Part shown: piece by piece, positions 4,335 to 27,480 of the stretch | Position numbering within the stretch: position 1 is the stretch's first letter | How the letters are laid out: every line of letters begins with the position of its first letter | Assembly: GCA_021234155.1 (NCBI GenBank) | Contig: JAJEKV010000071.1 | Span: forward strand, 124,001 to 188,000 | DNA length: 64,000 bases | From: Isoetes taiwanensis | Lineage: Eukaryota > Streptophyta > Lycopodiopsida > Isoetales > Isoetaceae | Direction: 5' to 3' | Position numbers and translations under genes: made by a program | Notes under the pieces: generated by a model | Databases searched by the model: none | The model's input: only the letters and a program-made list of their open reading frames with translations | What the model was told of the DNA's origin: nothing

Positions 4335-4688
4335 TGTTAACCACCTAGTGGTTAACATTGTGCATCACATGTTAGGTGCATGCACATGTTAGGTGTCGAT
4401 GGTGGCGGTGACACGCAGTATGATTAGGTTAACATAAGTGTAGGGATTAGATTTAGTTAGATGTCGGCTCAGATTTTGCGGTCTACACTATATTAGGCCA
4501 GAACCTCTTCATTTGTACTTCGGTTTATCTCAAATTTGGAAGCCGCTTGTAGCCCGTTCCCTTCATTCTTTGTACATATTTGTTTTTGTCTTGTTCTTGT
4601 TTTTGTGATCATGAGCATGGCAGCTTTTCCAGCAGCGATCATGGTACGGCTTTCTTTGAAGGTGTATGCCAAGAACTCACAACTAACA
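4335..4688 (+). repeat. 5' LTR of the 2.7 kb element
   Basis: Aligned by eye with 6675-7032 almost end to end, with scattered substitutions and short indels. The start contains a palindrome (TTAACCACCTAGTGGTTAA). Shared landmarks include GGTTAACATAAGTGTAGGG, TTTGCGGTCTACACTATATT and TGTATGCCAAGAACTCACAA. Confidence 0.85.
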
Positions 4689-6674: not shown

Positions 6675-7032
6675 TGTTAACCACCTAGTGGTTAACATTG
6701 TGCATGCACATGTTAGGTGCATGCACATGTTAGGTGTCAGTGGTGGCAGACTGACACTTGGCATGATTAGGTTAACATAAGTGTAGGGATTAGATTTAGT
6801 TAGATGTACGGCCAGATTTGCGGTCTACACTATATTAGGCCGAGCCTCTTCATTTTGTACTTTCGTGTTTATCTCAAATTTGAGAGCCTCGCTGGCCCGC
6901 GTTCCCTTCATTCTTTGTACATATTTGTTTTGTCTTGTTCTTGTTTTGTGATCATGAGCATGGCGGCTTTGTAGCATCCGTGATCATGGATTTGCTTTCG
7001 CAGTGGTGTATGCCAAGAACTCACAACTAACA
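6675..7032 (+). repeat. 3' LTR of the 2.7 kb element
   Basis: Second copy of the LTR at 4335-4688; see that entry. It is followed by ACGG, which also precedes the 5' LTR. Confidence 0.85.
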
Positions 7033-9948
7033 ACGGCGATGTCCTCGCATTTCTACGATCGCAGACGCAACCCCGCCACGGGGATCGGATGACAGCCGTG
7101 TCACTTTCGCTTTGGCGACGATTTTGCTCTCGCTATGTGGTATTTTGACTTGATAATTTGTAATGGCACGTCGCGGTGGGCTTCCGCAAGTGCACTGCGA
7201 GCCAGGGACAATCGGGGAGGGTCTAGTGTGGTGGACTATGTGCTCGTAGTTGCGCCAAGATATGCATCTCATCGGTCGTTTAGGGTGGGCACAAACGGCG
7301 GTCGGGATGAGGAGGTCGACTTCGAGATCACCTCCCACTTTATTTGGACATGGTTTGGCAAGCGCCGGAACCCCCACTATGCCAACCCCCGCCATCTTCA
7401 GTTCGCGACTAGATTATGAGCGCGGAGGACTACGCCCGGGATGCTCATGGGCCAGCCTGTCGGCAATTACGACCCCCACACTAGAAGCGTGACGCCGGAC
7501 CAGTTGACTTGGCTATTATGGGATGCGGCCGGACAAGTGCTGGCAGACCCGATTTCGCTCGGGGACAACAACATTTTCGCATAATAGGGTGGTTTGATGC
7601 GGAGTGTAAAGCATAGCGCCCATTTCCGTCATCATCGGATCCGTTACCGGAGCCACCACCGCGATGCAGCGCCCACGGGGGAAGGAGACAAAGCGATGCG
7701 GTACCTTGCCATGCATCGGGGAGATGTTAGGCTCTTGGACACTCATCCTCGAACCTTTTGGCGCAGAGTGGCAGGAATGACCCCCCACGAGGGGACATCA
7801 CCGGCTGATGGAAGCGGTATTTGCGGCGGCTTTATGACCCACCGGGGGACGTATGCCCATACCCCACAGGATGGCCCCCATTGGTTTTGTGAGGAGGAGG
7901 ATGTTGTGGAGGGCTGCAGCGGTGACTAATGGGAAGGCGGTGACCTCGATGGTATGCAGGCCTAGTTACTCAAATGGGTGGGGCTGACCCCTTTCTGTTC
8001 AACGAGCATTGCGGGAAGGTTTCCCAGACAATGGACCACAAGCGGGGTTTGTCCCCATTCACAAAGGCGGGCGACCCACCCGCTGTCCGACCAATTACCG
8101 GACGATCATGGTCGATTCGGTGTTTGCAAACCGCTGTTCGGGCATTCTCGAAAGCAGCAGTTGACCTCCACGGGCGGAGGCCCGGATGTGGAAAGCCCTC
8201 ACACAAGCAGGCTTTAGACCCCGCCACTCAACGATTGACCATATCTTTACCGGGCGCGGGCCATCGATTGAAGATAGCCGGAACCATCGGCGGGGACTTG
8301 TATTGTTGCTTTTGTGGACTTCGCTGAAGGCTTTTGATACGGTCCCCGGGAAAAGCTATGGGCTAGGCTGTGTCAACTAGGGGCTGCGGCTGCCGTGCGT
8401 AATGCCATATACGGTACGTATGAGAGTTGTTTTGGCAGGATGCAGCCGAGGGCCAAGCATTCACCGATGAGTATCGAAGTTCCGTGCGGCTGCCCCTCTC
8501 ATTAACACTTTTGGCCTCTACATTGATCGGGTTAGAGCCCCGGCTTCCGAGCATGGGGGATGGCATACAACTTTTGCACTGCATCATCCGCCAGCTCATC
8601 TAAGCGGATGATGTTGACCTTCCTCGCCCACACCCGAAGCTATGCGGTCTCATCACGGATGCCCTAGACACATTCTCATGAACTCTGGGACATCTTGGCG
8701 TGAATCGGCCAAGACACGGGTGGTTCTCATATCCTCTTCCGCCACCCCGCCTCCGCACTCACGCCGGGGGGGGCCTTGTGGAGGTCACGCCCACCTACAA
8801 AGTACCTAGGGTGGAGTTCCCCTCCTCGCTCTGTTGGGGCGTCCATCCGGCTTGGGTGAAAGACCGGAAGCGCTTTATGTCATCTTAAGAACAAGTCCAC
8901 GTGAGGAGCTCTATGATTGGGGCCATCGGTCCACATCTTTTTGGGCACTAATCGAGTCCACAATCCTTCATCGGGGTCGAGAGTTTGGGACCCCGTGCGT
9001 CTCTTTGGCGACACGGAATGACAAACAAGTCACGGAAGGCATTTTTAGCACGGGAACGCAGGGTGAAACCTTCAGTCCCCCGGATTCTCGCTGCGCAGAA
9101 AGCGATTCTTGCCGCTCGGTAGGCCCCTTGATAGACACATCGTCTATTTTCGGAGAAAGTGGTTAATATGGGTGATGCTCGGCTCCCGCTTTTGGCTTAC
9201 GCGGTGGCAATGGGCCCGCGCTCAGGCTTTGTTGGAGGGTAAGAGAGATCGATGGTTCGTTAGATGGAGCGTGCGCAGAACCGCAGTGCGTCGCGGTGGA
9301 TCGTGACGACTGCGGGGAGTACCGGACGCTTGCTTCCTTGGCAAGCTCGGGACCCGGCTCTCGGCGAGTCAAAACAGCCCATTACAAAGGAGCACATCAA
9401 CCCCGTGTTAGCCTGGGGCAGCAGCTCTACACGGGTTCCTACCGCCTCAAAAAGCGAGACTCATTGCCTCCATTCACAAGTGCCCACCATCTTCGCATCA
9501 AGGCTGGCGGTGGATTGGAGAACCCCGCCAGACGAACTCTGTCGGGCTTTGTCAAGCGGGTGCCATTGAGGATGAGTCTCACACTTTCGAGTTGCCCAAA
9601 GATTCAATCAGATCACGGGCGGATATGCTCCCTTTAATACGGCGGACTTGCCCCTACATTTGCCGATGAACACGGCCACGATGCGTGCTCGGGGTCGACA
9701 TTCAGGAGGTATTGGATCTGCGAGCTCACCTTTGCCCCCCCTTTGCGCTGCCCGATCGGGCACTACGGGTGCGGTGCATGAGTGTATATATTTGTGTGTT
9801 TTGCATTACGTATATTGGAACGGTTTGTATTACAGGTGATTGCTGCCCACGATTTTTCCCTCTAAACCCTTCCGGTGGGGTTTTAAACCGGTAGTAATCC
9901 GCTTGGTGGGTCCCATAGACCGATTGGTCTCCGTGGACGATAAAAATA
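7033..9948 (+). pseudogene. Decayed non-LTR retrotransposon (endonuclease and reverse transcriptase relics)
   Basis: Two recognisable pieces of a LINE polyprotein remain, in order. At about 7137-7420 the frame reads SSVVDYVLV followed by FRV...EEVDFEITSHF, matching the end of an apurinic-type endonuclease (xSSxVDYVL ... SDH). At about 7974-8385 the pieces AGFRPRHSTIDHIFT, GGDLYCCF and KAFDTVPGK match the reverse transcriptase core (GFRxxxSTxDHIF ... LYCCFVDFxKAFDTV), split over two frames. The rest, to about 9660, is stop-ridden. After it comes an apparent 3' UTR with GGTCTCCGTGGACGATAAAA and a CCTT microsatellite tail. The exact 5' end is unknown because the 2.7 kb LTR element ends here. It is certainly dead; the clade (RTE- or L2-like) is uncertain. 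Confidence 0.7.
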
Positions 9949-14191: not shown

Positions 14192-15480
14192 GCCATGGTA
14201 TTTTTGGCCAAATACCTGGTATTTCTGGATGCCTTTATAGTGGCTTATAGACCTCATAATCCTTTATTTGCCTTATAATAACAGTGGCTTCATTTTTCCT
14301 GACTTTTTTTGCCTCATGTTCATGTGTTATTTTGCTGGCTTTAGAGTAATATGGTAAGTTAATATGGTATTTCTGGCCAAATGCCATGGTATTTCTGGTC
14401 ATTGCTTGGTATTTCTGGCCAAATGCCATGGTATTTCTGGCCATGACAATGGTAATTCTGGCCAATACCATGGTATTTCTGGACATATACCATGGTATTT
14501 CTGGCCAATACCATGGTATTTCTGGACATATACCATGGTATTTCTGGCCATATACCATGGTATTTCTGGCCAATACCATGGTATTTCTGGACATATACCA
14601 TGGTATTTCTGGTCAATACCATGGTATTTCTGGCCAGTACCATGGTATTTCTGGACATATACCATGGTATTTCTGACCAGTACCATGGTATTTCTGGACA
14701 TATACCATGGTATTTCTGGCCAATACCATGGTATTTCTGACCAGTACCATGGTATTTCTGGACATATACCATGGTATATCTTGCCAATACCTTGATATTT
14801 CTGGACATATACCATGGTATTTCTGGCCATATATTATGGTATTTCTAGTCAGTGCCATGGTATTTCTGGCCAATACCATGGTATTTCTGGCCATATACCA
14901 TGGTATTTCTGACCAGTGCCTTTATAGTATCATAAAGTCCTCGTAATCCTTTATTTGCCTTATAACAACACTGGCTTTATTTTTCCTAAAAGAATTTTAC
15001 TTTGCCAGGACTATGGTATTTCTGGCCATATACCATGGTATTTCTGGCCAATACCATGGTATTTCTGGCCATATACCATGGTATTTCTGGCCAGTACCTT
15101 TATAGTATAATAAAGTCCTCGTAATCCTTTATTTGCCTTATAACAACACTGGCTTTATTTTTCCTAAGAGAATTTTACTTTGCCAGGACCATGGTATTTC
15201 TGGCCAATACCATGGTATTTTTGGCCATATACCATGGTATTTCTGGCCATATACCATGGTATTTTTGGCCAGTGCCTTTATAGTATCATAAAGTCCTCGT
15301 AATCCTTTATTTGCCTTATAACAACACTGGCTTTATTTTTCCTAAAAGAATTTTACTTTGCCAGAACCATGGTATTTCTGGCCAATACCATGGTATTTCT
15401 GGCCATATACCATAGTATTTCTGGCCATATACCATGGTATTTCTGGCCATTCCATTTAAAGCCCTGGTATTTCTGGTAAC
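14192..15480 (+). repeat. Palindromic 21-22 bp satellite, left array
   Basis: Tens of copies of a unit of the type ATACCATGGTATTTCTGGAC plus 1-2 bases, alternating TTTCTGGCCAAT, TTTCTGGCCAT and TTTCTGGACAT linkers. Each unit holds the perfect 12 bp palindrome ATACCATGGTAT. From about 14921 the array is organised into a higher-order unit of 178 bp (starts at 14921, 15099 and 15277), which adds a non-satellite spacer containing CCTCGTAATCCTTTATTTGC. Long ORFs across the array in both strands (for example YHGIGQ and PWYFW repeats) are products of a repeat length divisible by three and are not genes. Confidence 0.9.
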
Positions 15481-15620: not shown

Positions 15621-18110
15621 TTAAATTTCAGAAGCTAATTTGAAGAAATTTCGGATTGTCTTTTGTGGTTTCTTTGCTTGTATCACAGCCTCATGTAGCC
15701 TGCCTAGTAGCATACTGAAAGTGCATCGGCAGTTTGCAACATCAACCTTTCCAAACCAATCCGGGGTCACCTGCATAGTTCAGCCTAGTTAGCATAAATA
15801 ATGAACATAAGAAAATCATACAATACATGTTTATACCTGAACAGGACGAATTTGCAGATCATTTAGAATGAAGTCCCTAATAAAACATCGTGCATATAAA
15901 AGAGTATACACTCCACAGTCTAAACCATTTTCTTGTTCAGGACAACGCATTTCCATCGGTTGGATGTCAACCCATTCTGGGGCAGGGGTATCCCAAATTT
16001 GATGGACCTCTTTGATCAACCTGCAGCCATGTAAAATTACAAAATTTCGGAATTATATAAGTACAGAATTAGATAGATAATGACAGAAATAGTAGCAAGA
16101 TGCCTACTCGCATATTTCACGTGATATCTCAGCAGCATACCACAATCTGAGGGAGTCAAAATGCAGCAAAATTGGATGTGGAGCTCCAAGTGTCTTGCAG
16201 ACTTCCCAATCAGCATAATAAACATATAGGCTACAATGATGGCTGCACTTAAGCAATTTGAATTAACTACTTATAAACACATCAAAAAATATGAATAAGC
16301 AAAGTCAATCGAAAGGATGTATTGATGCCAGAAGACTAACCTTCTACAAACAGGCAGCCAGTAGAAGAGGGGTGGCTCTTGGGGTTTGGCAGGAATCAGC
16401 TTCCTCCAAATGGACACAACCTTGTTCATGTACAAGTCCACAATGGCCGGGTGAAAGAAGACATGAGACCTTCTCCTTGGGACCGGTACCATATGAGAAA
16501 CAACCCTGTATTATGAATTCACAATCAGTGCAGAATTGAAATAAATGAGAAAGAGGGGCACTTACATGAGATAAGCTCCCACATATTGCTCATTCAACCA
16601 AAATTGTCCCATCTTTTCAGGAATATCCGTACCAGGATGCTCGAAGGAGAGGGCCTCCACATCATCTATCACAAATTCACCTTTTACATCCGAGACCGTA
16701 GGCCAAAGTGCGCTCCCCAGATGGACAGGCCATTGTGCATTGTAGGCAAGAATTGGATTAGATTTGATGCTCTTCCCTTTTTTTTTTTGTTAGCCCATTC
16801 CAGAGTGGTAAGGTCCTCCAGATGCATAAAAAAATCAAAATTCAGAATGAAGTCATCTGTCATGGTCACCATTGTTCTCCTGATTACCTCGGGATCATCC
16901 TCTCCGTCATCTGCCACATCGAAGTATGTGGATATCTGGTGCACAGATGATGAAGCAGCACCCAATTGTTCAGATGAGAGTAATTCTGAACCGATCCTCA
17001 ACTTTGGTTTTTGAGGTGCTTTGAAGGACATCCCTGTAGCTGTAGACTTGGTTAGCTTGGTAACCGATATGGAAGGGGATCTCGGCCCACTGCTGCTCCC
17101 CTCAAACCTGCCACAATAAAGTAATTTGGTCTGCAAACCCTCCTTGCATGTCTCTAGGTTACCCAAAGCTTCTCGGTCTACCCACTCTTTTCTGTCCACA
17201 GTATCCAGCCCATAATTTTGTGCAATGTACTTCTCATACTGTGCAATCTTTTTATCCTTCATTCTCTCCCACTCTAACCTCCTCCGAGCAACATAATCTT
17301 CAGCATGTTGCACCAAAGTTTTCTCTTTGTCCTCACCCTCTGGAATATTCTCAAGCATAGCCCGACCACAACCCAAAGCAAGCTCTCGGCATCTCTTCAA
17401 AAACCTGTACAGATTAACCTTGTACTCCGGATCAAAGGCATGCCTCAAGTTGTATTCCTGCATGTCCCGCCCTTCCCTTCTCTTTTGCTTTGTAACAGGC
17501 AGCCTTCTTCTGCCCTTTGGAGCCCCTGCTACAACATCATCCCATTCATGCTCCTTAAGGAGGTGATCCTGCAGCCTCTGCTTTTTTACAGAAGAAACAG
17601 ACAGATATGCTTTGCCTTCTTCCTACTATAGTAATACCTGCGTTCCCAAGCTGCCTCGTCGATCTCCGAGTCCTCCTCTAAGTAGGCTGCTACCACTTCA
17701 GAAGGCATGGGTTTCCCCCGGATTGGGCTGACCCTCTCTGCCCGCTTGATCTTCTTGATCACGCTCAATGAGCTCGGATGAAATGGAGTTATCTGTTTTT
17801 CCTCCTTTGCCTTTGCCTTAGCTTTCACAGCCTGGGTTGCTTGCATCATCTCCATCTGCTCTGGGAAAAAATCCTCTTCATTACCTTGATTCTCTTCTAC
17901 AACATAATCCGGATCGCGCTCTTCTTCCTCTGGATCGCCCTCTTCTTCCTCAGGATCCACTTCCATTCCCTTTGAAGATTCTGATGCATCCCCTTCTTCC
18001 GGGGATTCTTCCCCGGACGAATAGAAGTAGGATAAGCTCCCACTGTCATCCTCGCTCCCACTTTCAGAATCTCGCCCTTGGGCGCCTGCTCTGTCGCAGG
18101 AAGCTGCCAT
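15621..18110 (-). CDS. Ulp1-type (C48) cysteine protease of TE-A, five exons, one frameshift
   Basis: Likely a SUMO/ubiquitin-like protein protease carried by the transposon. Exons read on the - strand: 18110-16566, 16505-16341, 16242-16108, 16020-15837 and 15770-15621, all with GT-AG borders; the last ends NFFKLASEI. The N-terminal 170 residues are acidic (runs of Glu, Asp and Ser) and then basic. A helical middle (KVNLYRFLKRCRELALGCGRAM) follows. The protease domain runs from about WPTVSDVKGEFVIDD to the end. The visible triad is the His of SHHCSLYVYYADW, the Asp of LLHFDSL and the Cys of EQENGLDCGVYTL with its preceding Gln. The frame shifts once near 17590-17640 and may shift again before the protease domain near 16740, so this copy may be inactive, but splice sites and active-site residues are kept. 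Satellite flanks both sides. Related plant Mutator-like elements carry Ulp1 genes whose role in transposition is unknown. Confidence 0.8.
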
Positions 18111-18318
18111 AACTCAGCCTTGCTGTCCTGCGCTTTCAAATGTCACCGGAAGCCACCATAGCTCAGCCCCGGAGCTCTGTTTTTTCAAAAGTATGCTGCA
18201 CTAATATAATAGTTGGGTATTTTGGGCAGGACTACTACTGTCAGATCATTAGATATACCCCAATTTAAAAATGAGATGATGATAGTTCTGACAGGCCAGA
18301 AATTGACAGATACCGGCC

Positions 18319-18381
18319 CAAAAATACCATGGTATAAGGCCAGAAATACCATGGTATATGGCCAGAAATACCATGATGTAT
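18319..18381 (-). repeat. Satellite fragment left of TE-B, reversed polarity
   Basis: Three units of the palindromic satellite written as GGCCAGAAATACCATGG, that is, in the opposite polarity to the array at 14192-15480. The last unit is cut by the TE-B end at 18382 and the array resumes at 25800. Confidence 0.8.
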
Positions 18382-18676
18382 GGCCGGGTGTGTTTTTAAT
18401 TGATATAGGCCAAAAAGCATGTGGGCGACATTGGTGCTGTAAAACTGCTTTTCGAACTTCAACCCCGAGCGTCATGCCCTTCAGCGCCCGTCGTCGAAGT
18501 TCTGCCCTTCATCCAACCGTCATCCAATTTTCATGGGCGGGAGAGAGCTTCCATTCTTGGATCGACTGGGCGCCGGATCAAGTTGAATTTGAAATGGGTA
18601 ATGGTGGAGTAAGCTCGGGTTCTTGCAATTGTCTTAAATTATGGCCGAAATTCTTTGTTTCATTTTTTTCTCTCAA

Positions 18677-21600
18677 ATGGAATGGAACGCTTCCTTCCTC
18701 GGCTCTCTGGCCAAGAACAAGGTGGCGTTTGATCCTGCATCAATTCTTTCCGGCCTCCATGAATTCGAACAACAGTCCAAAAGATTTATGGAATCTTGTT
18801 CAAAATTCAGCACAATTATTGACAGAGGTCTTACTTCTGGTCGATAATTTGTTCTTGCATGACATAACTGTGAACAATGCTATTCTCTTTTAGGAAATGC
18901 TGGAATTGCTGCCCCCTCAGGTGGATCTTCAATTAAAGAAGTGAACCAAGAAGACAGAGGTGTAACCTCTGCTTGTTGATTTTTTTTTGCAATACTTTCT
19001 TAATTCTTAATTACTTCTACTCTATTTTTTTCAGGAAATGGTGGATTTGCTACCCCCTAGATGGACCAACTATTGAAGAAGCTTATCAAGAAGCTGGACA
19101 TGAAGGTTTAGCATTTGTATTTGTGTCTTTGCTTCAACAACCATTGAAATTTGTACTTATTAGCAAAGATATATATGTCTTTCTTGTTTTCAAGATTATG
19201 GACAACAAGTCATGGAAGATGAAAGCATAAACGGCTTTCACATTTCGAGGTATTTCAAATTGGTTTGCCAAATTGGTTTGCAATTTTGATTTCGGACTCA
19301 ATGTCAAGGTCTTGCACTTACTTTTATTGTACTTCCTCATTGCGTGTCTTGGTACATGTGTTGAAGAGGTACATGGTGAATTTGTTGTTAAGAAAAGATT
19401 GATTTTGAGTACTTGCAAGAGGAAACAATGGTGAGGCAACAGGTAACTTATTTACTTTCAAGTCTGCTTTGTCATTTTTTTTATCTTTGAATTGGTCTTT
19501 GAATTCATTTTAAAGCTTTTGTTCAACTGTAGGTGCGAGGATTATCCAATGAACAAGTAGATTTTGCATTTATACCAAAACATACAAGTCTTGATAACGG
19601 ATATTGAAAGTAAGAAATATTTATTTGTTTATGTTGATTAAATGACTCTTGCTTTGTGAAATTTAGCTATTGTTAGCATATGTAGCTGTCCTTTTAGGAA
19701 GAAGAGAGCTGAACAAAAGAAGGAAGGAGAGGCAAAAACAGAGAGAGAGAGAGGGAGCTGCGGATGAGCAAGCCAAAGTCAATGGTGAATTCAGCACAAA
19801 AAGAAGAAGAAAAAGGCTGTCAAAAAACATTGGCAAACTTGTATGGCGAAATTTGTGAAAACGCAAGTGAAAAGGACAAGGAAGATATCTTAAGGGGGGC
19901 AGCCAAATGGTTGCCTCAACTTGGTGTTGAATCCACCAAAGAAGTAAAGACTATGAAAGCTATAGTGGATAACTTGAAGAAATCATTTGCAGCGACTCAC
20001 AAGTATGCTAAGGATACGGATATTTGGAGAGCAAGAAGTACTTTATGCTATGGCTTTCTCGTAAATTCGATACCAATAGAAGAGCTTTTGCAAAGCAATT
20101 GAACTTGAATAGGAGAATTGTATCGATTCTTTGTGAATAGAAGGTTGGCGGTGAACATGGGAAAGGTCCATGGTCAATGTTTAAGAAGAGCACTTTCGAT
20201 GTGACAAGCTTTCTTATGATCAAAGAAAATTTGTGGTTGACTTCTCGGAGAAACAACACTAGAGTGTCACCTTGCAAAAACATGTCATGAAGATCGGACT
20301 AGCTAAAGGAGTGAAAGTAATGCATCCCTTGCATTTCTTGGAAGAAACTCAGGTCAGTTTTTTTTCTAAAGTAGTTGTGATTCTTATTTCAATTCAATTA
20401 CTTACTTTTGTTGTTTCTTCAATTTGATGTTCTCCTAGGTGTGTTTCTACAAGAGGTTTACAGCAGAATACCCAAAATTTGAGGTATCTTTCTCAATGTT
20501 TCATGCTTTGAAGCCACCATATGTGAGGAAAGTTAGGGATAGAGAAACTTGCTGCTGTGTCTACCACATGAAAGCAGACTTTATAAGACAAGCAATAAAT
20601 AAGGTTAGGCATGATGAGAAGATTCATGGTAGTAGCTGCAATTGCACATGTTTAGTTTGTGGTCCAGGACCTATTTGCATGGCCAAAACATGCACATATG
20701 CAGCTACTAGTGAGTTGTGGAGGTCATTAGTCTGTCAAAAGGATGAAGAAACAGAAGAGTGGCATAGACATGAGTGTTTAACTCTAAAATGCAAGAAATG
20801 TGGACCTGCCAATTTACCTACATGTCCAAAGGAGCTAGAACACAAATCAGATCACAAAATCGAGTGGAAAACCTATGACAAGGTAAGAGTTCAACCTAAT
20901 AGTATCATGATTTCTATTTGTGATGTCTAATGTCAATGATTTGTCATTACTGTTGCAGGTACTTGAGCCTACAGGAGAGCCAGAGCCTGATGGGAAAGGA
21001 GGGTTCAAAGTTGGTAGTAAACCAATTACCAAACTAGTTTACAAATGCACAACTGCTGCTTGCATTTTCCAGGAAGCAAAAACAGTTCTAAAAGAATTTA
21101 TTCCACATAACTATGAAGGGAGATGGCAAGCCAAGCAATTCAGAGAATGCCTGGCAACATTCCCAAAAGACACAATTGTGTCAGTCATAGATTTTGCTGA
21201 AAACTATAGTTTTAAGATTCACAAGAGATACAAAAGTCGCATTGGAGGAATGACCAATGCACAATCTTGGTGCATATTACTTATAGACACGCTACCAAGT
21301 TAGATGACATTAATCTTGACGAGAAAGAGAAGGGTTGTGAAGGAAACTCACTTCTACATATCGGATAGCGGGGACCATGATACATTGATTGTGCAGCATT
21401 GCTTGAATAAGCATGCTGCATTCTTGAGCAGCAAAGGTGTGAAATACAACAAGCACATCATGTGGTCTGATGGATGTCCTCATCAGTTCAAAGGATCAAG
21501 AACCTTCTATTTCCTTGGCAGGAACTACCACAACACTGGCATTCCAATAAATTGGAACTACTTTGCCTCATATCATGGAAAGGGTAAGTACTTTTATGGT

Positions 21601-22557
21601 TTTTCTTTGTGTTTGTAATGTATTCTTGTTATCTCATGGAAATTGTATACCAGGTGAGCATGATGGTGCTGGAGCTGTCATCAAACGAGCTTTAACTCAT
21701 GAGATGCTGAAGAGGAGCTCAGTACCCTTAAGAAATGCACATGATGCAGTGGTATTTCTAATTAAACATTTCAGTGACAACTCCCAACTCGAGGGAAAGG
21801 ACAGATACAGGTATGCTGAAATAGTGCTGTTTTTTTCTTACAATATGAGAAATAATCCTCTTTTTACAGGTTCTTTTGGGAAATTGGAGTGGATGAAGTC
21901 GACAGGTCACAGAGGTTTGATTGTGCTACACTAGTAGGTTCAAGCAAATTTCATTCTATCAGGCCAATTCAAACAACAGATCCAACACAGGTAGCTCATA
22001 TGGATTATAGTTGTTTCTGCCATAACTGCTGGTTAGGCAAACATGCCAAGTGTCCTAACAAAGCCAGAATAGGTACATGGCAGTACTCAGAACTTAGACC
22101 ATGTGCTGATTATGTGGAAGATATTGTGGATGGTCCTGTGTTTGAAGGTGATCCACAATGGATGTCTGATATTCTTGCAGTTGGGGATAATTTTGCTGTA
22201 GTTTCAGAGCCTGACAATAAAGAGAAGGTGGACTTTTATGTTCTTAAATGCACCAAAGTCAAACATGTTGTTGAGAAGGCATTCAAAGATCCATGGGGTC
22301 AGAAGTTTGGCAGAAATGAAGTTGTTGTTACTGGGTTATTCTACAAGTATTTAGGGTGCAATAGATATGAGCTACTTGTGAATGAACCAGAGTGTAATGT
22401 TTACAGTCATTTGGTAACTTCAGTTTGTTTTGAAATGAGCAATAGTGATGGAATTGGAAATTGCTTCAATTTGCCAGAAGACATACAAAACCAAATACTG
22501 GACAGCTTGCCACAAAACAGTGCTTTGTTTGCTCAGGAATCAGATCAGCCTACATGA
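18677..22557 (+). pseudogene. TE-B protein with RNase-H/DDE-like motifs, multi-exon, with frameshifts
   Basis: A probable transposase. The best start is ATG at 18677 (MEWNASFLGSLAK); small exons follow, then a basic region near 19700 and a helical block ending near 20100 (KKSFAATHKYAKDTDIWRAR). The last exons are clear: about 20440-20880, 20959-21600 (frame change near 21300), 21654-21811 and 21870-22557, with GT-AG borders. A Cys/His-rich segment (CNCTCLVCGPGPICMAKTC, CKKCGPANLPTC) probably binds zinc. Next come SVIDFAENYSFK, then IMWSDGCPHQFKG, then HGKGEHDGAGAVIKR across an intron. Their spacing fits the three acidic positions of an RNase-H-like transposase fold. The last 200 residues contain a possible BAH-like region (VGDNFAVVSEPDNKEKVDFYV). 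Proteins with DFxENY and WxDGxxxQFK are common uncharacterised proteins in animals and some plants. Frameshifts near 20095 and 21300 make this copy defective. Confidence 0.65.
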
Positions 22558-23079
22558 AGTGTTCATAATGAATCAAAGTGTAAAAAAAATTCCAAGTCTG
22601 TATCAAATTGTCTGCATCCAAGTCTTTAATTGTAACATTGATTGTAACATGGATTCTTTCATTGATTCATGAAAGTTTTAGTTTCATTGTTTATAACATT
22701 AAGTTTCTAGTTTCATTGTTTAGTTGTTGTTTTGTTGTTTAGTTTCATTGTTTTAGTTTCATTGTTTTTAACATTAAGTTTTTACTTTCATTGTTTAGTT
22801 TCAAAACTTCGAGTTGCCAATCTTCAAAACTTGGAGTTAATGTTTTTAATACTTTGCTTGCAAAACAAGGGATTGATAACTAAAAACATTAGCACTTCTA
22901 TGACTGCAAACAACTTCATATTCCAAAACAAGTATCCTCAAAAGATAATAGAGATATGTATTCATGTAAAAGTTTACAAAACTGGCACCTAAAAGGGAAA
23001 ATTGGTGCTCACTGTTTTACATGAAAATATAACTTAGAAGTTAAAATAACTGAAAGTTTTTCTGACAACAAAACAAGTA

Positions 23080-25443
23080 TCACTTGAAGATATTTTTCAC
23101 AACTCCCTTCATCTGCTCCTTCTTCTTCAACCACCCTTCCATGGTAAGCTCCTCCTCCATTGGGCTGTCTGGGCTTTCTGGAGTTTGGAGTACTTTCCGC
23201 TGTGATGGAGTTAGCACCACACCCACTGGTGATATTACTACAATGCTCAGTTCTCGACCTGCATGAGCAAGAAACTAACTAATTAAACTATGTAAAGAAC
23301 ACCCTATGTAAAGAACCTCAGGAAATTTTAACTCACAGGTGTTCAGGGGAGTTGGAATCTTGCTGGTGTCAGGACCATCTCCTTCAGTGACTTCATTATC
23401 TGCATAATGTTAATTAGGACTAGTTAGAAGAAAACTGCTGAAAAACTGCTTACCAGTTTTAACTGGAGTCTTCGTAGGAGAGAGGGAGTGATTTTCTTCA
23501 GTCTCATTTTCTGTTAAGAATAGACATTCATGTCAGAGATTTGTAGGGTTTGAATTAATGTGCAAAACTCACTTACCATTGTTCAATGGTACTTGTTTAG
23601 CTGGTGAACTCTTTTCTGTTGAACTCTTAACAGCTTTTGAACTACCTTCAGCTACATAAACAGACAATTCTAAGATAGTTAAGACTTAATTGAATGAGAT
23701 GTTGGAATACTATTACCTTGCATGTTAAGGGACTGATGTTCTTTTGCAAAGAAATTCTCCAGAATATCATCCACAGCCTTTTCAGTTTCTTTCTCTGGAA
23801 TTTCCTTTCTTCCAGTAGGTTTTTGCACTTTCTTTTTCTTAGAACCAGTCCCTTGTAAGTTAATACATGCTGACTTAGATCTGGGCTGAAAACCCTCTTC
23901 ACGAGTCAAGTGTGAAAACTTTACAGGACTAACTTTGTCCACATCGATTGGATCTATAATGAATACATATGAACACAATTAAGTTAACAGACCTAAACAA
24001 TTTAGTAATCAGCAAATTTCATACCTGTTTCAACTGGCTTTGATGCATTACCCTTTGTAGAACTCCTTGTCAATCTTTTCTTTGCTTGTCTGACTGGCTG
24101 AAAGTCTTTACTTGCTGGTTCATTGAATAAGGAGGTACTAGAGCTTGAATCATCTCTGAATCTTTTCTTAGGAGTTACCTCCTTCTTTGTGCTTTTGGAC
24201 TTGAAATCTTCTTTGCTGATTTTTTCCACTTCTTCTGCAGATTCATCACTATCTTCTTCATCATCAGACACTGGTGGCTTCAGTTCCTTGAAGCCAAGCT
24301 CGTCCAAAATGGTGGCAGGCACCTCAGCTTCACAACCTGATGCAATACATTGCATACTTTCCAGCACAACACTGAAGCAAATTACATGGTAAATGTGTCC
24401 ACATTCTTTGAGTTTGACATGCAACTCATATTCCTCTGAAAACAGAAGGCCACAGCCCTCACAAGTACTTCCCCCATCAGCAGACATTGGGAAAAAATAA
24501 TTTCCCATTCCTATCTTTGGCAGATTCTTCTTTGACTTATGATTCTGTTGCAAATGTGCCACATGTTTGCACTTTGCATGCCAATATTTCAAGTTAACTT
24601 CATATTCTTCAATTTCAGACTCAAGGATAGAAATACTTGACTTTAGTGCTTGCAGACTTGAGGAGTTGGTCTTCGACTTCTGCTTGTCTAAAAATGATTG
24701 CAAAGCTTGCTCTTCCTTTTGTATTAACTCTATTGCATCCTCTTCTTCAGGGTTGAGGAGCTTCAAGGCCATCCAGTTCTGCCTTTTCTCATTAATTTCA
24801 TCTTCAAGATCCTTAAAGCATGCCATCGAGCTATTAGCAGAACCCTCCATCCTCAACAGATCAGCCTGCTTCTCCACCAATTCCTGTTTACTGTCTTCTA
24901 ACATTGTAGAAAGAGACCTCATGTGGTTCAGCAGGGATTTGGTGTTCTTTTCAAAAGCATTCCCATGCTCTTTGTTCAACTGTACTTGCCCAATTCTGTA
25001 AGCCTCTGCTGCTAAACTCGCCCAATTGACCTTGTACTCATCAGGATTCTGCAAGGCTTTAGCACTATGAGACCAGGCGAATGCTCTGGCAAACAATGTT
25101 CGAAGTTCATTGTTTGGAAGGGGTTTCTGGTAAACCCTCTCGATCAAGTCTGTCAGAGATGTCTTGAACTCGGGCGATCGACGCTTTTACATGAATCTTG
25201 CCCGTCTTGGGCATGGGCTTCTGCCAAACTTGCAAAAATTCTGCATCTGAAACATCTCCCTTTTTGATGCTTCTTGGATTTTTGCCCTCCATAGAAAGCT
25301 TGCGATACTTAGCAAATTCAAGAGGAGTTCTTGCGAAAAGCATTTCCTGGAAACCCGATTGAACATTCTACATTAAGAAAAAAAACAAACTCGGACTAAA
25401 AAAAAATGCTTCTTACCTCGCCGGAATTGGTTTTGGTCGCCAT
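23080..25443 (-). CDS. TE-B accessory protein: coiled coil, RING-like zinc site, nuclear-type basic tail; seven exons
   Basis: Exons on the - strand: 25443-25417, 25346-24025, 23953-23717, 23651-23577, 23510-23454, 23399-23337 and 23258-23080, all GT-AG, ending KKKEQMKGVVKNIFK. The protein begins MATKTNSGE then EMLFARTPLEFAKYRKLS. A coiled coil covers roughly residues 130-260 (SLSTMLEDSKQELVEKQADL and beyond). A cross-brace-like zinc site follows: CEGCGLLF, then CGHIYHVICF, then CIASGC. Acidic (DDEEDSDESAEE) and Lys/Arg-rich tails follow. The frame shifts once, near 25190, between KASI and SPEFKTSLTDL. The gene is convergent with the DDE-like gene, 0.5 kb apart. A RING-like site suggests ubiquitin or SUMO ligase activity, but the cysteine spacing is not a textbook RING, so this is inference. 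Confidence 0.65.
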
Positions 25444-25802
25444 GTTTTCTTCTTCGAGTGTTGAATTCAAAAAACAGAAGAATTTGAAGCAGGATGAAGC
25501 ATTATCATTCGCATTAAGGCAAAGGACAGATCAATCCGGTCGGACAGTCCAAGAAATTAAGGATTTTGAAGAGCCCGAGGAAGAATTATGCATAAAATCA
25601 TTCTTCCAAATGATTCGCGCCAGAAAAAGAATTGATGACTGGTGGCCTTCTCTGACCGTCAGTGCCTGTCAGCGGCCTTCATATGTATGCCCCGACGGGC
25701 CATCCGACCGGCAGTCGATCCGCCGAATTAAATCTAAAAAAGTGCTAAAAAAGTGCTTGACGGGCGGAAAATGGCATATATCAAGCATAAATAGACCCGG
25801 CC

Positions 25803-26335
25803 AGAAATAGCAATGGTGTGTGCCGAGAAATATCATATTAAATTGCAATACAATTTACCATAAATTACCTTATAACTAAATTACCATACAATTTATGTTG
25901 TCACAGCCTTAGTGATCATGGCCTTAGAAATGGTATAGCCTTGTGACAACCTTAGAAAGATCATGGTATGCTTCTGGACAGGACCATGGTTTATGTCCAG
26001 AAATACCAGAATATGGCCAGAAATACTATTGGCTTGTCTAGAAATACCATGGTCTTGGCCAGAAATACCATGGACTTGGCCAGAAACACCATGGTATTGA
26101 CCAGAAATACCATGGTAATGGCCAGTAATACCATGGTATTGGCTAGAAATACCATGACACTGGCCAGAAATACCCTGGTATATGTCCAGAAATACCATAG
26201 CCTTGTCCAGAAATACCATGGTCTAGGCCAGAAATACCCTGGTCATGGCCAGAAAAACCATGGTATTGGCTAGAAATACCATGACACTGGCCAATATGGC
26301 CAGAATGGCCAGAAATACCATAGCTTTGTCCAGAA
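25803..26335 (-). repeat. Satellite, right array part 1
   Basis: Resumes directly after the TE-B end. Units read CCAGAAATACCATGG with short variable linkers (TATTGG, ACTTGG, TATGT). Polarity is opposite to the left array. Units are more diverged than at 14.2-15.4 kb, and a degraded lead-in at 25840-25965 is almost unit-free. Confidence 0.8.
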
Positions 26336-26995
26336 ACATGGAATAAAATAACGGCTAAGGTTAGCCAAATGGCTATTTTGTAGCATTTTTGCCAAGAAAA
26401 ACGGCTAAAGTAAATAGAAAAAATGCCCAAAAAAAAGAAAATTTTAGCCCAATTTTTTTGCCGCCCAAGTGAGTTTCTAGGTTGAATAGCCAAACCTTTA
26501 TCTCCAGACATATCCATCAGGACATCGATTAGCTAAACCTAAGATAGAGTGGGCTTGGAAAAATAGATAGATTAGCACGAAGTTCAACACTAATGTATGT
26601 ACTATATAACTTTAAGAAATTTCAAATAGGGTTTATATTTTGTTTCTTTTTTTCTTTTTTTCACTTTCTTTTTTGTTCCAAGTACAAAGTTGAAGCATTT
26701 AGAGGAAAAGGAACAATACAGTCCCCTTTTTTTTAACGTTTTTGAACATGTTCATGTATGTTTGTGTCTTGATTTATGTATTTATAATAAATTCAATGTC
26801 TTTGCCAAAATACTTGGATTTTTTAAATTACTATAGCGTGATGGCTAATATTTGCCTTTCCATTTTGTGAAAGTTTAGCCAAAAGCAAGAAACTGTGATG
26901 GAGAAAAACCATTTAGTTTAGCCAAGTGTTAGAAACTTCTAGCCCCAATTTGAAGGTAGTTTAGCTAAACCTATTTTGGCTACACTAAAATATAG
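26336..26995. other. AT-rich block interrupting the satellite
   Basis: About 660 bp with no satellite units and no ORF of note. The ends carry short related inverted pieces (GGTTAGCCAAATGGCTA on the left, TTAGCTAAACC and TTTTGGCTA on the right), so it may be a small non-autonomous DNA element inserted into the array. The target duplication is not clear. Confidence 0.4.
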
Positions 26996-27480
26996 GAGTA
27001 GTAATTTATTCTATGTCCAGAAATACCATGACACTGGCCAGAAATACCATGATAATGGCCAGAAATACCATGGTTCATGTTTAGAAATACCAGAATATGG
27101 CCAAAAATAACATAGCCTTGTCCAGAAATACCATGATACTGGCCAGAAATACCATAGTTTATGTCCAGAAATACCATGTTAACTAGCTACATTAATCTAA
27201 AAGCTAGTCAAAGTTTAATAGTTGTATTGATCTAAAACAATTTATGTTGTCACAGCCTTAGTGATAATGGCCTTAGAAATTGTATAGTCTTGTCCAGAAA
27301 TACCTCTGTCTTGGCCAGAAATACCATGTTTTTCCTAGCCAGAAATACCACGTCATTCATGGACAGAATAGAATAGAATATGATTTTATCATCCACGGAG
27401 ACCAACAAATACCATGTCACTCCTAACCAGAAATACCATGTCACCCATGGCCAGAAAAACCATGGCCAGTTCCGTTCCCG
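26996..27480 (-). repeat. Satellite, right array part 2
   Basis: More CCAGAAATACCATG units, interrupted near 27180-27290 by a non-satellite stretch that repeats sequence from 25880-25930 (TTATGTTGTCACAGCCTTAG). This points to a second large duplication unit. It leads into the TE-A right end at 27495. Confidence 0.7.
27361..27400 (-). repeat. Retroposon 3' end with TATTC-type tail
   Basis: On the - strand: GGTCTCCGTGGATGATAAAA, then a short A/T stretch and TATTCTATTCTATTC. This is the same 3' signal as the LINE at 9926-9948 with a different microsatellite. Confidence 0.6.

Follow-up and report, generated by a model that had tools for sequence, protein, structure and literature searches.

To which superfamily, if any, does the two-gene mobile element at positions 18386-25798 of a 64,000-nucleotide stretch of the Isoetes taiwanensis genome (contig JAJEKV010000071.1, positions 124,001 to 188,000; hereafter the window) belong? 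A first-pass annotation made from the letters alone had read this locus as a DNA transposon fitting no recognised superfamily, with a transposase gene (gene 1) and a second gene (gene 2) for a ligase-like partner. We find that the segment is a real DNA transposon with terminal inverted repeats (TIRs), that the window copy is a decayed member of a repeated cut-and-paste TIR family, and that gene 1, judged by its conserved motifs, very probably encodes the transposase. The ends and target duplications are probably most like those of the little-studied Sola group, rather than wholly new.

Borders and target sites of the element

Copies were sought in the genome from which the window comes (1.658 Gb in 1110 contigs). 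With a 243-base query from the left end, 28 of 40 genome matches start exactly at 18386 (best 40 of 115 candidates scored), and 31 of 45 matches to the right end stop exactly at 25798 (best 40 of 69 candidates scored). Alignment of eight fetched copies placed both borders exactly in four (L001, L003, L005 and L007) and the right border exactly in a fifth (L004), whose left alignment runs 14 bases past the border; L002 showed the right border only, and L006 and L008 neither. Since the borders are common to many copies, the transposon is the 7,413-bp segment 18386-25798 (plus strand), which starts with GGGT at 18386 and ends with CCC at 25798. The imperfect inverted ends reported at first pass are genuine: initially detected as a pair of 37 nt that is 78% alike, they correspond to true TIRs of about 27 bp with 21 of 27 bases alike, the left one spanning 18386-18412 on the plus strand and beginning GGGTGTGTTTTT, the right one spanning 25772-25798 on the minus strand and ending AATAGACCC.

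Immediately outside the TIRs, GGCC stands at 18382-18385 and again at 25799-25802 as a 4-bp target site duplication (TSD). The earlier reading of GGCCGGGT as the start of the element holds for its GGGT part, which is the true end, and fails for its GGCC part; as a terminal repeat the whole string is ruled out, since copy borders and flanks identify GGCC as the TSD. When the two flanks are joined with GGCC counted once, the 22-bp satellite register runs unbroken, so the transposon inserted into a satellite array, as had been proposed from the satellite present on both sides. Perfect 4-bp TSDs flank the window copy and five others (six of six: GGCC, ACAT, TGGA, TTAT, ATTA and TAAT) as well as nine of thirteen more copies whose left and right ends were paired from the end searches, giving 15 of 19 copies in total, with no fixed motif and no TTAA among the 15.

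The element is a repeat rather than a chance feature, with at least 215 genome matches to gene 1 (best 150 of 8675 candidates scored) and at least 131 to gene 2 (best 129 of 3020 candidates scored); a control search with hAT returned 1152 first-look candidates against the 8675 for gene 1, a rough comparison only. The search for other copies that the first-pass annotation had recommended bore out its view of a mobile element, in that the borders at 18386 and 25798 recur and both genes recur, paired. The TIRs, the 4-bp TSD, the recurrent borders and the core with its three conserved acids together make this a DNA transposon and gene 1 its very probable transposase.

Divergent lineages occur in the same genome. 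Two copies of one family (L010 and L013) and one of another (L011) are 63-64% identical to the window over exon B of gene 1, and their ends read GGGT...TTTT. The end search for these three required a matching TSD, and the tally of 15 of 19 leaves their TSDs out. In L010 a low-complexity pair ranked above the GGGT pair, which was preferred because L013 carries the same ends at a different site. The L009 lineage has a sharp left start in L009 and ten further distinct copies; nine of the 11 read GGGTGCAAAATCGG, and L032 and L035 each differ from it by a single base. The right end of this lineage was looked for and not found. L101 and L102 duplicate the loci L027 and L028. For L006, L008 and L012 the two ends were not both recovered.

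Gene 1, the candidate transposase gene

Gene 1 lies on the plus strand and its exons A to E span about 19700-22557. The N-terminal exon A region (19700-20352) is followed by the Cys/His-rich exon B (20439-20882), by exon C (20960-21585) with the first two core aspartates (21190-21192 and 21469-21471), by exon D (21653-21811) with GEHDGAGAVIKR and the third aspartate (21662-21664), and by exon E (21868-22557) with a second Cys/His cluster and a C-terminal domain. The core, with the motifs DFAENY, WSDGCPHQFKG and GEHDGAG, is preceded by the N-terminal part and the Cys/His-rich exon and followed by the second Cys/His cluster. The motifs listed in the first-pass annotation are all present, its GKGEHDG being interrupted by an intron (GKG|EHDG), and the two genes of the window do converge. 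Judged from its reading frames, the window's gene 1 is a pseudogene, because exon A matches in three frames with stops and exon C carries frameshifts between the first and second aspartates relative to L001 and L003. This state, like a frame change in gene 2, had gone unremarked at first pass.

The core is conserved among copies. In alignment A4 (31 rows, all from the window's own genome), the first aspartate is kept in 18 of the 19 rows that cover it (L098 has Gly) and the second likewise in 18 of 19 (L012 has Asn). The third was surveyed at 20 loci, and GEHDGAG, which was not a search condition, is read at all 14 whose match covers the site in frame (L090 is out of frame there and five loci lack coverage). 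The nine A4 rows for exon D were excluded as conservation evidence; they are uninformative on GEHDGAG because the pattern that found them contained it. Ratios of nonsynonymous to synonymous substitution (dN/dS) in exon C were 0.03-0.10 in 19 between-lineage pairs (45 pairs tried, 21 with dS), figures that are rough because dS is above 1, and 0.21 and 0.88 in two near-identical pairs. Borders, TSDs, conserved acidic motifs and low dN/dS all uphold the first-pass view of gene 1 as a putative transposase gene.

Searches for named relatives returned little. Against Pfam no family exceeded its cut-off (sub-threshold scores only, such as Phasin, HTH_8 and DUF4419), and sequence and profile searches of the PDB gave no match. 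Against NCBIfam, where two proteins were tried, a match of P0001 to macrolide_MphB (E 3.3e-5, 23 bits, cut-off 615) was set aside as spurious. Among viruses, the protein search found no relative, the profile search gave 23 pattern matches with none confirmed, and motif matches at 11 loci and at a further 2 were judged chance from their translations. Among prokaryotes there were 124 pattern matches, none confirmed, and, from a motif search, 13 loci, none looking related; a search of 4 prokaryote genomes gave 0 matches and, having no positive control, shows nothing by its empty outcome. The phage search gave no match, and the plasmid search a single match at E 1. Of 395 genomes of one phylum, 6 gave a match at E<=0.01 with the transposase profile. 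The three best of these (L115, L116 and L117) share one common region, near 1501-1758, in bacterial open reading frames that, judged by a motif, look like those of serine beta-lactamase-type proteins, and they were treated as false positives; their scores perhaps arise from a short SISDD-like stretch. That they score at E 1e-7 to 1e-4 counsels caution with profile E-values. Uncharacterised animal proteins presumably carry DFxENY, SDGxxxQ(F/Y)K and HGKGxxDG motifs, much as the first pass stated for animal and plant proteins; the viral, phage, plasmid and prokaryote collections that were searched yielded no relative.

A recurrent second gene

Gene 2 occupies 24002-25367 on the minus strand, with a frame change between 25174 and 25185 and possible 3' exons below 24002; its main open frame has 394 residues. 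The first pass had described a coiled-coil protein with a RING-like zinc site. The putative zinc site has eight Cys and His residues in RING order (CxxC...CxHxxHxxC...CxxxxC, at 24332-24463 on the minus strand as counted from the gene-2 match) that are all kept in 12 of 13 aligned sequences, L111 having Tyr for the second His; the twelve copies aligned with the window were chosen for showing no stop. Judged by eye, the protein looks helical and coiled-coil-like. The last ligand pair is C-x4-C, and the RING models of Pfam matched only below their cut-offs.

At least 31 of the 131 gene-2 matches have one of 149 listed gene-1 matches within 6 kb, against 0.14 expected by chance, and all 31 pairs are convergent; within 10 kb there are at least 38 pairs, 37 of them convergent. 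These counts are of matches, not elements (some copies yield two or three), and are lower bounds because only the best candidates were listed, and they are no measure of gene-1 copies without gene 2. Between the window and five of the stop-free copies, at 74-79% identity, gene 2 has a dN/dS of 0.12-0.17 (dS 0.97-1.18), with higher values, up to 0.93, in close-copy pairs. Pairing and substitution pattern support gene 2 as a recurrent partner under selection, in keeping with the earlier suggestion that this lineage has such a partner; the ligase role is a prediction. In L009, by contrast with the convergent arrangement of other copies, gene 1 shares its strand with a gene-2-like gene at 7630-8647 that may or may not belong to the element.

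Sola and the alternatives

As described in the cited passages, elements of the Sola superfamily (Sola1, Sola2 and Sola3) have a DDD transposase, a 4-bp TSD, a length of 2-9 kb and TIRs from 11 bp (PMC10741241), and they are reported from Physcomitrella (PMC9033089) and ferns (PMC6786969, PMC6890710). The element studied here is like them in its 4-bp TSD (15 of 19 copies), its 7,413 bp, its short imperfect TIRs and its probable D-D-D triad, and differs from them in its recurrent convergent RING-like partner. Because a 4-bp TSD at a free target, a probable triad, a 7.4-kb size and short TIRs fit Sola, the earlier statement that the element fits no superfamily is probably wrong. We consider it fairly probable that the window holds a degenerate member of a TIR family moving by cut-and-paste that has gene 1 as its transposase and gene 2 as a partner and that belongs to Sola or works like it.

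On this account the N-terminal and zinc-rich parts of the gene 1 protein would bind the GGGT... ends, and its D-D-D core would cut the ends and join them to the target with a 4-base stagger. Gap repair would then produce the 4-bp duplication of free target sequence that is observed. The gene 2 protein would most likely assist the transposase complex or the handling of it in the nucleus.

Several results weigh against the Sola reading. Four of the 13 paired copies have no perfect TSD (two with one mismatch, two with no match), and some TSDs here are not AT-rich (GGCC, TCCT) whereas those of some Sola2 elements are described as AT-rich, AWWT, in the passages of PMC3627910. The Glu two residues before the third aspartate is equally invariant (GEHDGAG, 14 of 14), so the third catalytic residue could be either. 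In both genes the dN/dS estimates are rough, most of the dS values used exceeding 0.9. The RNase-H fold proposed at first pass stays a prediction: the two AlphaFold2 models are poor (mean predicted local distance difference test scores 40.8 and 42.6), and the core strands seen in the first are all absent from the second. The first, of too low confidence to count, places the first aspartate in a strand, the second after a strand and the third before a helix, an order that would suit RNase H; Foldseek, run with this first model only, gave nothing at E<=0.001, the RNase-H-like chains 3vn5, 3hot, 4u7b and 3kio being among 18 insignificant rows, and in VIA-align with the same model the best Z (4.0) belongs to an unrelated chain, RNase H2 reaching 2.0. 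Gene 2 is without an assigned function, and the likeness to Sola is drawn from its published description.

A somewhat unlikely alternative is an undescribed superfamily apart from Sola, in which a DDD/E transposase of a separate kind would require a second protein. It would account for the absence of any score over the Pfam and NCBIfam cut-offs and of any PDB sequence match, and none of six motif strings of the element occurs in the literature searched. That literature also showed no report of the element, or of Sola in Isoetes. To our knowledge Pfam has no Sola model, which, if so, would explain its silence, and the element already fits Sola as the cited passages describe it in the length and free choice of its TSDs, its probable triad, its size and its TIRs. 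We regard as quite unlikely the stronger form, in which transposition in a superfamily apart from Sola needs both a DDD/E transposase and a convergent coiled-coil RING-like subunit kept through several divergent families of a single plant genome. Gene 2 could instead be a captured passenger or host-interaction factor, such as an anti-silencing ubiquitin ligase, dispensable for transposition, an idea that we hold possible but doubtful. It is suited by the RING-like order of the ligands, intact in 12 of 13 sequences, and by the opposite-strand accessory gene of an algal Sola1 in the passages of PMC12477816, itself a further likeness of the element to Sola; the C-x4-C pair and sub-threshold Pfam RING scores argue the other way, as does the same partner across several divergent families, convergent in every pair within 6 kb. 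The dN/dS of gene 2 also speaks against a passenger, though a passenger under selection would fit too.

Among described superfamilies, Kolobok and piggyBac both leave 4-bp TSDs, and the ends of Kolobok are given as 5'-RR, comparable to the purine-first GG start here, yet both target TTAA in the passages cited (PMC9587614) and none of the 15 perfect TSDs is TTAA. The same source describes a C/DxxH signature between the second D and the last catalytic residue in Kolobok, hAT, P, MuDR and Dada; by eye, no conserved C/DxxH lies in the corresponding stretch of the A4 rows. With no Pfam match over cut-off in addition, a Kolobok or piggyBac relative is highly improbable. Tc1/mariner (TA) and MULE/MuDR (7-12 bp), as described in PMC10741241, do not match the 4-bp TSD seen here. 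Ectocarpus PIF/Harbinger elements, in the passages of PMC12477816, resemble ours in having two genes tail-to-tail but have a 3-bp TSD, and gene 1 matches no Pfam family over its cut-off.

As far as the cited passages show, Sola-type transposons have been reported from few land plants. A family with more than 200 gene-1 matches in one plant genome, exact borders and an apparently selected second protein makes the need for a partner testable. It could also seed a transposase model, the proteins tried having scored below the cut-off of every Pfam and NCBIfam model.

Elsewhere in the window, blocks of the 21-22 bp satellite (CCAGAAATACCATGGTATATGG) lie at 14364-15450, 18318-18385, 25983-26338 and 27012-27464 and also show longer periods (e.g., 43, 107, 127 and 178 bp). 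A 17-bp unit, GTGCATGCACATGTTAG, is repeated in two short arrays separated by about 2.3 kb (4360-4395 and 6700-6736), perhaps the ends of another element. Adjoining the transposon, an acidic-rich open frame of 175 residues on the minus strand (17586-18113) is perhaps part of another mobile element.

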